Below, one piece after another: positions 4,009 to 28,671 of a DNA stretch of 33,489 bases. The notes below the pieces were generated by a model, which saw only the letters and a list, made by a program, of their open reading frames with translations, was not told the origin of the DNA and ran no database searches. The stretch comes from Bacteroidota bacterium (GTDB lineage: Bacteria; Bacteroidota; Bacteroidia; UKL13-3): positions 1 to 33,489 of the forward strand of contig JAUXUD010000008.1 in NCBI GenBank assembly GCA_030680835.1, read 5' to 3'. Each line of letters starts with the position of its first letter. Position 1 is the first letter of the stretch. The translations under genes were made by a program, and so were the position numbers.

Positions 4009-4080
4009 CGTGTTCCCATTCACGGTCACGGTAGGGACAGGTCGCGACCTGTCCCTACCGTGACCGTGAATGGGAACACG
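4009..4080. repeat. 72-bp perfect palindrome with REP core GACAGGTCGCGACCTGTC
   Basis: Two 36-nt halves are exact reverse complements with no loop, centred on TCGCGA. The 18-nt core at 4036-4053 is identical to the cores at 21018-21035 and 21661-21678 that flank the RAYT gene. A further 10-bp arm pair (4001-4010 with 4091-4100) extends the structure into the end of the upstream gene. It sits between convergent genes, so it may also serve as a bidirectional terminator. Confidence 0.9.
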
Positions 4081-7398: not shown

Positions 7399-7575
7399 AA
7401 TTATAAGAAAACCATTATTTTGTTAGTCGGTTAGTTTTACTTCTAATCAAAAACCTGCATCGGTTCAATTAACCCTGAACCCGCTTAAATCTAAATAAGA
7501 ATAGTTCTCGACCTGTAATTAGTAAAAGCAGATGTAATTTGTTTCTTTGTTTTTTTGTATCAAAAAAGCCAGCCC

Positions 7576-9904: not shown

Positions 9905-10713
9905 GCAATTTTTGGCAACGTACCCTAACCGGATTCTTTTTTGTTTTAACCATTGTAAGCTGCACCATTCTTAGCGAATGGAGCTTTTTTATTCTGCTGT
10001 TTGCCATAAACTTTTTATGCCTGCTCGAGTTTTTTGAACAGATGCTGCCCGATAAATCCTGGATTGAAAAATACCTGGGGGTAATTGCCGGAAGCATTAT
10101 CAATATCATGTTCATTTTTATTATTCGCGGCGATTTATCCTATAGCTGGTTTTATCATTTGATACCGGTTTTTATGCTCCTGTTTTTTGTGAAACTTTTC
10201 GAAAAAACCGGAAGGGAATTTGATACCCTGGCATTCCAGATCCTGGGAATTATATACATCTGCCTGCCCTTAACCATGCTTTGCGATTTTGGTTATCTTA
10301 ATGCCGTTTCATACGGATATTCCTTGCCGCTCGGATTTTTTATCCTGCAATGGAGCAGCGATACCTTTGCCTACCTGATTGGCAAACCCTTTGGCCGCAC
10401 CAAATTATTTGAACGCATCAGTCCGAAAAAAACCTGGGAAGGAAGCATCGGCGCAATGGTTTTAACCGTTGGTATGGGTTATTTGCTCTCGCAATTCTGG
10501 GATGATGTAAGCAGCAAGGACTGGATGATTATTGCCGCCATCATTGTGGTGTTTGGCACCTTCGGCGATTTAATGGAATCGCTCTTAAAACGCAACAAAC
10601 ATATTAAAGACAGTGGCTCACTATTACCCGGCCACGGAGGCGTTTTAGACCGTTTCGATGGCGTATTCTTTTCGGCACCGGCGGTTTACTTTTATTTGTT
10701 GTTGAGTAGTTAG
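9901..10713 (+). CDS. cdsA: Phosphatidate cytidylyltransferase
   Basis: Makes CDP-diacylglycerol from phosphatidate and CTP at the inner membrane, the branch point for phospholipids. It has 270 residues with about seven hydrophobic helices. The family signature is intact near the C-terminus (about 226-252): SLLKRN..IKDSG, LPGHGG, LDRFDG. WSSDTFAYLIGKPFG at about 152-166 is also typical. It overlaps the DUF2007 gene by 4 nt. The phosphatidylserine decarboxylase at 14324 acts later in the same pathway. A purine-rich tandem repeat starts directly after the stop. Confidence 0.95.
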   Translation: MSNFWQRTLTGFFFVLTIVSCTILSEWSFFILLFAINFLCLLEFFEQMLPDKSWIEKYLGVIAGSIINIMFIFIIRGDLSYSWFYHLIPVFMLLFFVKLFEKTGREFDTLAFQILGIIYICLPLTMLCDFGYLNAVSYGYSLPLGFFILQWSSDTFAYLIGKPFGRTKLFERISPKKTWEGSIGAMVLTVGMGYLLSQFWDDVSSKDWMIIAAIIVVFGTFGDLMESLLKRNKHIKDSGSLLPGHGGVLDRFDGVFFSAPAVYFYLLLSS

Positions 10714-10803
10714 GGGAAGAGGGGAGGAAAATAGGAGGGTAGGAAGATATGAGGGTAGGAAGATATGGGGGTAGGAATGGAGAGTAGGAAGGTATGAGGG
10801 TAA
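10714..10803 (+). repeat. Purine-rich tandem repeat (about 16-bp GAGGGTAGGAAGATAT units)
   Basis: Degenerate tandem units begin immediately after the cdsA stop. This is the reverse-complement sense of the pyrimidine tracts at 139-231 and 25861-25919, so it belongs to the same repeat class. Short open frames across it are by-products of the repeat. Confidence 0.65.
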
Positions 10804-10885
10804 ATGTCCTAATAGTCGCATAAGTCCTAATGCAAATGAACCCATAAAAGTAAATTACGCAAAAGAGCTGCAATGGGCTCTATTG

Positions 10886-15458: not shown

Positions 15459-15490
15459 GGTTTAAACCCACCATGATCAGAATATAAATT

Positions 15491-15650
15491 GCCACGTGCT
15501 TTAGCTCGGGATTAAAAATTGCCAAGCATTAGCTCTAGGTTCAGATAATAAATTGCCACGTGCTTTAACTGTATGTTCAGATAATAAATTTCCACGTGCT
15601 TTAGCTGTATGTTCAGATAATAAATTGCCACGTGCTTTAGCTCGTGGTGG
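15491..15650. repeat. 36-bp tandem repeat, about five degenerate copies
   Basis: Units centred on GCCACGTGCTTTAGCT recur at 15491, 15521, 15555, 15591 and 15627; the last three are exactly 36 nt apart. Each has a CACGTG palindrome. Because 36 is a multiple of three, one minus-strand frame stays open and codes for a 12-residue repeat, which I consider spurious. There are no unique spacers, so it is not a CRISPR array. Confidence 0.75.
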
Positions 15651-20978: not shown

Positions 20979-20992
20979 TATTTAGGCAATCA

Positions 20993-21060
20993 TCCAAAAA
21001 CAATGACCCCCTGTAGGGACAGGTCGCGACCTGTCCCTACAGGGGGTCATTGTTTTTGGA
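20993..21060. repeat. 68-bp perfect REP palindrome overlapping the RAYT 3' end
   Basis: Two exact 34-nt halves with no loop. The core GACAGGTCGCGACCTGTC is at 21018-21035. The right arm includes the last four sense codons and stop of the transposase gene (21047-21060), so the element is physically fused to it. Confidence 0.92.
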
Positions 21061-21598
21061 GAATCATTGGTTTTTTATTAAACCGATCCCGTTCCCATTT
21101 TAAAGGATTATTTTTTATGTATCGGGAAATTTTCCCAAATGTATTGTCATTTCTGATAATATGATCGTGAAATGATCGCTGCCAGTTAAATTCTTTATAC
21201 CCTGCCAGATGAATCTTTTTTGAAGAGGTAGTTTTATAAGCACCCATCAGTTCAGATAATGATTTTATTTTCATTGGCTCAGATGATTGATATTTTGCCT
21301 TGATGTAATCAGCCTCTTCGATTTCATCAATTATTTTACGCGCAACATGTCTTTTAATTTCAATAATACCATGTATATGATTTGGCATTACTACAAATTC
21401 ATATAAATTAATGTATTGATATTGCTGTTCCAACCAATACCATTGATCGCTGGCTATTTTACCATAATCATTTAATATCATTACCCCATTTAATATTTCA
21501 CCAAAACATGAAATCCTGTTATGAACAACTGCTGTAATAAAATATAAATTATCATTCGAATAATCGTACCCCTTTAACCGGTTTTGTTTGCGAAACAT
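21047..21598 (-). CDS. REP-associated tyrosine transposase (RAYT, Y1/HUH type)
   Basis: A 183-residue single-strand DNA transposase of the IS200/IS605-like superfamily. The HUH pair is His74 and His76 in VVMPNHIHGI. Tyr121 in LMGAYKTTSSKKIH is my candidate for the catalytic tyrosine. WQRSFHDHIIR (139-149) and the tail motif SRYIKNNP (158-165) are conserved in this group. The gene is framed by REP palindromes on both sides (20993-21060 and 21639-21700) that share one 18-nt core. RAYTs are generally single-copy, domesticated enzymes that mobilise or process their cognate REPs. No accessory TnpB is present. Confidence 0.9.
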   Translation of the reverse strand: MFRKQNRLKGYDYSNDNLYFITAVVHNRISCFGEILNGVMILNDYGKIASDQWYWLEQQYQYINLYEFVVMPNHIHGIIEIKRHVARKIIDEIEEADYIKAKYQSSEPMKIKSLSELMGAYKTTSSKKIHLAGYKEFNWQRSFHDHIIRNDNTFGKISRYIKNNPLKWERDRFNKKPMILQKQ

Positions 21599-21638
21599 AT
21601 ATTACTATTATTATTATTACAATTATCTGTTGCGACCT

Positions 21639-21700
21639 GTAGCATCCAATCACCTGTAATGACAGGTCGCGACCTGTCACTACAGGTGATTGGATGCTAC
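21639..21700. repeat. 62-bp REP palindrome upstream of RAYT
   Basis: Two 31-nt halves pair with one mismatch and no loop. The core GACAGGTCGCGACCTGTC (21661-21678) is the same as in the elements at 4009 and 20993, but the outer arms differ. A partial core GCGACCTGT also occurs just before it at 21632. Confidence 0.9.
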
Positions 21701-21764
21701 GCCATATGATTGACGCGACGCTACGCCATATGATTGACGCGACACGTCGCTACATATGATTGCG
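21696..21764. repeat. 24-bp tandem repeat abutting the REP
   Basis: Two identical 24-mers (21696-21719 and 21720-21743, containing GCCATATGATTGACGCGAC) and a diverged third copy (to about 21764). The first copy overlaps the end of the REP arm. The array lies directly before the stop of the CNNM gene at 21775. Confidence 0.7.
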
Positions 21765-21774
21765 TTGATATTTA

Positions 21775-25821: not shown

Positions 25822-25860
25822 TCAATACTATAATTTATTCGTTACCACATAAATCCCAAA

Positions 25861-25919
25861 TCCTACTCTCTTATTTTCCTATCTTCCTACCCTCCTACAT
25901 TCCTACCCTCAATTCCACC
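25861..25919. repeat. Polypyrimidine tandem repeat between gldF and gldG
   Basis: Degenerate CTTCCTACCCTC-like units on the plus strand (purine-rich on the coding strand) begin 2 nt from the gldF stop. It is the same repeat class as at 139-231 and 10714-10803. Confidence 0.65.
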
Positions 25920-28518: not shown

Positions 28519-28598
28519 ATAAATTTAACCCTGATTATTAAAGTTCAGTCAGTATTTTTGTATTACCACAGTTTGACAAATTTATTTAAATACTATTT

Positions 28599-28656
28599 GT
28601 TTCTTTGTTTCTTTGTAGCCTCAAAAATCCCAGTTGCTACAAAGAAACAAAGAAAC
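28599..28656. repeat. 21-bp perfect inverted repeat of GTTTCTTT units
   Basis: Arms 28599-28619 and 28636-28656 pair perfectly round a 16-nt loop. Each arm is a direct repeat of GTTTCTTT. A half copy (TTTGTTTCTTTGT, 7538-7550) lies at the same relative place after dusB. Confidence 0.7.
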
Positions 28657-28671
28657 TAAGGGGAACTTTTT

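Follow-up and report, generated by a model that had tools for sequence, protein, structure and literature searches.

The window (the whole 33,489-nucleotide stretch analysed here) carries, between a 152-aa ORF and the gene for a CNNM/CBS-domain protein, a RAYT (TnpAREP) gene on the minus strand (21047-21598) together with two palindromes, A and B, that lie on either side of it. A reading of this DNA from its sequence alone had proposed an intact HUH tyrosine transposase with His74 and His76, and our data bear this out: the ORF is uninterrupted, encodes 183 aa and has both His residues correctly placed. They form the HUH motif (H74-I-H76) within NHIH (73-76), which is followed by a WQ motif (W139-Q140) and by Y160 in YIKNNP, the residue that, judged by sequence, is likely to be the catalytic Tyr. 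Matches to protein families are above the cut-off for Pfam Y1_Tnp (28 bits vs 23) and below it for NCBIfam REP_Tyr_transpos (64.4 bits, E 1e-17; cut-off 80). In the PDB, a sequence search found no real relative (best E 0.53). A fold search with an AlphaFold2 (AF2) model (mean pLDDT 75; 45 residues below 50) returned ISDra2, the REP-bound TnpAREP 4er8 and the IS200/IS608 TnpA (E 6e-6 to 3e-4), and by Pfam and AF2 fold search alike the protein has the HUH/Y1 transposase fold. Since all motifs given for TnpAY1 subclass 2.4 (NH[IFV]H, WQ, YIxNNP) in the accessible table of PMC6006769 are present, and going by the type of REP next to the gene, RAYT would fit subclass 2.4 / RAYT group 4. It is a small domesticated transposase of a known kind; an IS200/IS605 insertion sequence, for which several near-identical copies would be expected, was ruled out as the genome holds a single copy of the protein. 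Two further RAYT-like genes match it piecewise (34-48% identity), and one of these (G000:C61:32557-33180; L089) has two matched pieces separated by a GAGACGCGATTAATCGCGTCTC palindrome, identical to one of two GTAGAGACG-type REPs elsewhere in the genome.

Palindrome A (20993-21060; arms 34+34, no mismatches) comprises a 28-nt double-foot REP, GTAGGGACAGGTCGCGACCTGTCCCTAC, at its apex (21013-21040) and 20-nt locus-specific arms; with A5/T5 tracts it is terminator-like, and it holds the RAYT stop codon, the last 14 nt of the ORF falling within it. Palindrome B (21639-21700; arms 31+31, one mismatch), upstream of RAYT, has a REP variant (GTAATGACAGG..CCTGTCACTAC; 21656-21683) between 17-nt locus-specific arms. 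As the sequence-only reading had noticed, both are loop-less and share an identical 18-nt core (21018-21035 in A, 21661-21678 in B) while their outer arms differ. We add a third, palindrome C (4009-4080), 17 kb from the RAYT locus: a 72-nt perfect palindrome that starts directly after a stop codon between convergent ORFs and whose REP (4031-4058; core 4036-4053), identical to that of A, is flanked by 22-nt perfect locus-specific arms. The core common to all three is GACAGGTCGCGACCTGTC.

With three copies in the window (mean of 0.00 in 100 shuffles), 14 exact matches in the genome (4.30 Mb, 104 contigs; 18 with up to three mismatches) and none for a reversed-core control pattern, the genome-wide count that the earlier reading had suggested confirms that the core is repeated, though 14 is a low copy number for a REP family. 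Two of the 14 lie at the ends of contigs C78 and C82 with mutually complementary outer arms and are probably one locus, a thirteenth armed copy (see below) split between contigs. The unit common to most copies is larger than the core, which forms its middle: 28 nt (GTAGGGACAGGTCGCGACCTGTCCCTAC; nine exact matches), its two ends being GTAG and CTAC. Being multicopy, of the form GTAG-hairpin-CTAC and next to a RAYT gene, it is a double-foot REP, and among 395 genomes drawn from the phylum it occurs in its own genome alone. The REP of E. coli has one foot.

A short inverted repeat surrounds the whole RAYT element, its left member (GGCAATCAT, 20985-20993, plus strand) preceded and its right member (ATGATTGCG, 21756-21764, plus strand) followed by a direct repeat, TTGATATTTA. 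Right of palindrome B (21701-21765) there are three copies of ATATGATTG and fragments of another hairpin (ACGCGACACGTCGCTAC), to some degree reminiscent of half-REP duplications in relatives. For the neighbouring 152-aa ORF, no Pfam family was found at E<=1e-5. In five relatives (G004, G009, G011, G013, G014) the CNNM/CBS gene is directly followed by a minus-strand ORF, the stops almost touching and with no RAYT between them; by eye, the end of this ORF resembles the 152-aa protein, and the arrangement in G003 looks alike. In the relatives examined, no strong hairpin is present at the junction of these convergent genes, and entry into a hairpin need not be assumed for the RAYT copy itself.

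Other repeats in the window include a long inverted repeat with CGACCCCATCGGGGTCG (2548-2622), a second REP-like palindrome of another type; GCTACAAAGAAACAAAG-type inverted repeats at 28596-28659 and 7522-7563, locally and 21 kb apart; a repeat of 8-nt period (TCCTACCC-like) in three dispersed tracts (135-239, 10711-10808, 25845-25917) and both orientations; and repeats mostly spaced 36 nt (ATAATAAATTGCCACGTGCTTTAGCT) at 15462-15642. Near its contig ends (116-141 and 33350-33375) the window shares an inverted repeat, GTGTAAAC..TTTCAGGACGAG, with 11 matches in the genome (up to two mismatches), eight of which lie 113-116 nt from a contig end. Together with two opposite-orientation copies 1.5 kb apart on C64, this contig-end repeat indicates that copies of a single insertion sequence probably delimit the window.

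To link REP and RAYT we compared 60 genomes, i.e. our own and its relatives, and found the exact 18-mer core in five, the core family (GRCARGTCGCGACYTGYC) in seven and a RAYT match (E<=0.001) in 29. The seven core-bearing genomes are exactly those whose best RAYT match has at least 49% identity (7/7 vs 0/53, Fisher p 3e-9), a cut set after seeing the data and one that E-values do not reproduce, as by these the G022 RAYT ranks just above that of G011. Cores lie near such a RAYT in G001, G003 (estimated contamination 8%), G011 (whose RAYT match has an internal stop), G012 and G013, and in G021 a core variant sits in frame inside the RAYT gene; the RAYTs of G022 and G025 (44% identity) carry other palindromes, of the GTAGAGACG type. 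None of the 60 genomes has the core without a RAYT match, which is how the co-occurrence check proposed with the sequence-only reading turned out, and its view of a RAYT with cognate REPs is supported by the family matches, the fold match to 4er8 and this co-occurrence (with the post hoc 49% cut). That the arms vary is compatible with its further suggestion that the core alone is recognised, and the double-foot REPs are presumably mobilised by RAYT as single-stranded DNA.

Arm length was taken as the extent of pairing past the 28-nt REP at core copies in fetched stretches. In our genome (C36 and the C78/C82 pair are not in this list), both flanks are available for 15 copies, of which 12 carry arms of 13-22 nt in almost perfect pairing. 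All 12 copies with both feet and both flanks readable cap a longer hairpin precisely at its apex; in these armed copies both feet are intact and in each of the three unarmed ones a foot is damaged. Arm sequence differs at every locus (three share a AAAAAAATCCCCC motif), and when left and right flanks from different copies are paired with each other, scores reach at most 8 in 210 pairs. The 12 hairpins contain four mismatches, two of them inside the REP, each of which is a G-U pair in the RNA of one strand; the arm-REP junctions are perfect in 12/12 with no unpaired loop bases beside the REP. An A-tract (a run of at least five A among the 10 outermost nt) occurs in 7/13 arms vs 4% of intergenic 10-mers (p 2e-7), and with A-tract, GC stem and T-tract several outer arms resemble terminators that work in both directions. 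Past the arms, inverted homology shows no consistent extension (lowest p 0.045-0.065 in 3/12, uncorrected).

In relatives, arms of at least 8 nt are reached by 2/50 copies (11 in G013, 8 in G001), as against 12/15 in our own genome (Fisher p 9e-9). The 50 copies come from G003 (14), G013 (10), G012 (16), G011 (5) and G001 (5); G013 L074:10 (flank below 12 nt) and the one copy of G021 (arm 7) were left out, and the REP plus half REP at G003 L064, whose flanks are complementary over 10 nt, was not counted as armed. REPs of the GTAGAGACG type are armed in 0/2 cases in our genome and in 0/8 in G001 (at 8 nt; one with a short flank), but the one copy in G010 has a 16-nt arm and the one in G006 a 14-nt arm. 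In addition, 4/51 core copies in relatives lie between two halves of another REP that is split near its centre, and six lie beside one half (four 'reverse order' rows of this survey are two pairs of adjacent full copies). The four split REPs fit apex insertion into REPs or else partial duplication.

A result that goes beyond the sequence-only reading is that arms at several loci correspond to core-less hairpins of relatives. For this, conserved spacers were compared in relatives lacking the core there, leaving out those whose spacer was not retrieved, and a hairpin was called at p<0.05 (uncorrected; 100 mononucleotide shuffles each, spacer borders set by hand or by motif). The spacer between fatty acid desaturase and trigger factor (named by protein family) has a hairpin in 18/18 such relatives, the clearest case and of a bidirectional, terminator-like kind, and by eye the outer arm with its A-tract-TCCCC/GGGGA-T-tract recurs in eight of them (G001, G004, G006, G007, G011, G013, G015, G016). 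On the strength of this shared A-tract and TCCCC outer part, the hairpin is most likely older than the REP. At rpoB-rpoC 11/14 relatives have a hairpin, the other three having spacers of only 11 nt, and at tRNA-prs 9/17 do; the divergent aldehyde dehydrogenase/DUF1800 spacer is a clear negative with a hairpin in only 1/13. The retained rpoB-rpoC hairpin (L097, L100-L112, L142) differs in sequence between most relatives, and the tips in G009 and G012 look like other GTAA/GTAG palindromes. In the omp/TPR spacer, read by eye in 13 relatives, G003 and G014 have terminators, G002 has another palindrome, and G011 yielded an empty spacer. Loop-less hairpins without a REP do exist, accounting for 8/38 hairpins at the three positive spacers. 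By eye, three further places are not conserved in the relatives examined and are uninformative: the TonB/MFS spacer, the stretch upstream of miaA and the sequence on the right of palindrome C. Thus, the link between arms and pre-existing hairpins is strong at one spacer, fair at two and absent at one. For a good part of the loci an older hairpin probably bears the REP on its tip, and for some perhaps not.

We therefore favour, with a confidence only a little above even, a REPtron whose REPs are placed at the apex of pre-existing hairpins, their arms being retained or perfected afterwards; that RAYT itself performs the apex insertion is inferred. Hairpins extruded in replicating or transcribed DNA would expose a single-stranded tip, into which a REP strand mobilised by RAYT could be joined; the hairpin would then refold with the REP as its new tip, leaving the host unharmed, and RNA-hairpin selection and/or template switching during replication might keep or make the arms perfectly paired. 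Such a scenario has to account for the junctions, as an ordinary loop target should leave unpaired bases beside the REP and none of the 12 does. Their perfection implies loop-less targets, which are a minority in relatives, or later correction by template switching as a second step. Also awkward for apex insertion are the near-absence of the aldehyde dehydrogenase/DUF1800 hairpin from relatives, the hairpin at tRNA-prs in little over half of them, the terminators seen by eye at omp/TPR in two of 13, the mostly armless copies in relatives with the same REP family and our own two unarmed GTAGAGACG-type REPs. The more general notion that the target of RAYT-REP insertion is a structure (the apex of extruded single-stranded-DNA hairpins) rather than a sequence, with terminators as safe harbours and nested layers of hairpins, is more tentative, and to our minds it falls somewhat short of an even chance. 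What the perfect junctions would also suit is a model where the REP entered ordinary sites and, with replication stalled at the REP hairpin, the nascent strand folded back and copied one flank as an inverted repeat, giving perfect, loop-less and locus-specific arms. Template switching can, according to the accessible text of PMC8794818, both create and mend hairpins, and by eye there are short tandem repeats mirrored in the arms at L091, C78/C82 and L226 as well as an 11-nt arm (G013 L071:1573) whose left half is ordinary array sequence; the one spacer with its hairpin in a single relative also speaks for it. However, relatives without the core already have hairpins at the same spacers, and A/T-tracts at the outer ends of 7/13 arms are not expected from blind copying; we regard flank copying as rather unlikely.

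Less likely again is an exchange of tips, in which the hairpins are functional RNA structures whose ends were swapped for those of REP-tipped hairpins through recombination or gene conversion, a spread for which RAYT is not needed. The rpoB-rpoC spacer, where tips differ between most relatives and the hairpin persists, could be read this way, and gene conversion was put forward long ago as a way in which REPs evolve (going by the title of a paper). Yet the co-occurrence of the core family with a related RAYT across 60 genomes argues against it, as does the lack, the AAAAAAATCCCCC motif of three arms aside, of a common sequence in most arms to guide conversion. An ordinary REPIN/BIME, i.e. two inverted REPs that form one hairpin around a variable interior, may be suggested by the large palindromic units adjoining the RAYT gene, but here the conserved part is central and variable sequence surrounds it, opposite to the layout of a REPIN; this candidate was ruled out and we give it next to no weight. 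Even less credit goes to an assembly artefact, with palindromes made by the assembler or by amplification: some copies do lie at contig ends, but at many loci inside contigs, each flanked on either side by open genes, the same REP has different arms, and other genomes have it without any.

On the question of how REPs spread and choose their sites, a genome with REPs capping recognisable hairpins provides a concrete, testable target rule. That most REPs here lie on the tips of apparently older hairpins hints at a rule of insertion by which the host would be spared. Such a genome also shows how a mobile element could proliferate in intergenic DNA and leave gene ends intact, and it is relevant to the persistence of folding, in spite of sequence turnover, in hairpins such as that of rpoB-rpoC.

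Mobilisation of REPs by RAYTs has been proposed from genomes and in vitro cleavage (PMC8266576, PMC6006769; accessible parts). As described in the available text of PMC8266576, it is single-stranded REP that E. coli TnpAREP recognises; the enzyme depends on GTAG, and its cleavage and recombination of the REP take place at a CT close by. With other TnpAREPs some alterations of GTAG are tolerated, and for one of them CA is a further cleavage site. With this REP/BIME system (4er8) ours has in common the HUH/Y1 fold and a GTAG foot beside a hairpin, but the E. coli REP has a bulged stem and its transposase belongs to a different subclass. Closest is subclass 2.4, which in the accessible parts of Quentin et al. 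2018 (PMC6006769) spans Cyanobacteria, Bacteroidetes and other phyla and is defined by NH[IFV]H/WQ/YIxNNP motifs, double-foot REPs and REPs inside tnpA. Our RAYT shares the motifs and the GTAG...CTAC double-foot REPs flanking the gene, and relative G021 the REP inside tnpA; locus-specific hairpin arms outside the REP, as seen here, go unmentioned in those parts. It follows that the sequence-only reading was only partly right in calling such systems less described in Bacteroidota, as subclass 2.4 with double-foot REPs is published; its placement of the organism in Bacteroidota is in keeping with the genes observed. REPs within palindromes are on record too, namely A. variabilis GTAG-15, T. roseum GTAG-23 and H. 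neapolitanus CGTC-1 (Di Nocera et al. 2013, PMC3733652). As far as the accessible text of that paper goes, these families resemble ours in that REPs lie inside palindromes near gene 3' ends and supply stop codons, but their enclosing palindrome has one consensus per family whereas here nearly every locus has arms of its own, several of them terminator-like and, at three spacers, with counterpart hairpins in relatives. In a literature search that left most subscription journals outside and saw its sources in part, we found no description of REPs on locus-specific terminator tips. Template switching has been described, in what is accessible of PMC8794818, as a mechanism for hairpins. In their bidirectional A-tract, GC stem and T-tract, several outer arms look like intrinsic (Rho-independent) terminators, unlike which the tip is here replaced or extended by a mobile REP. 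Hence, the REPtron subclass and REPs inside palindromes of fixed sequence are already known, and what our analysis adds is variable arms linked to pre-existing hairpins.
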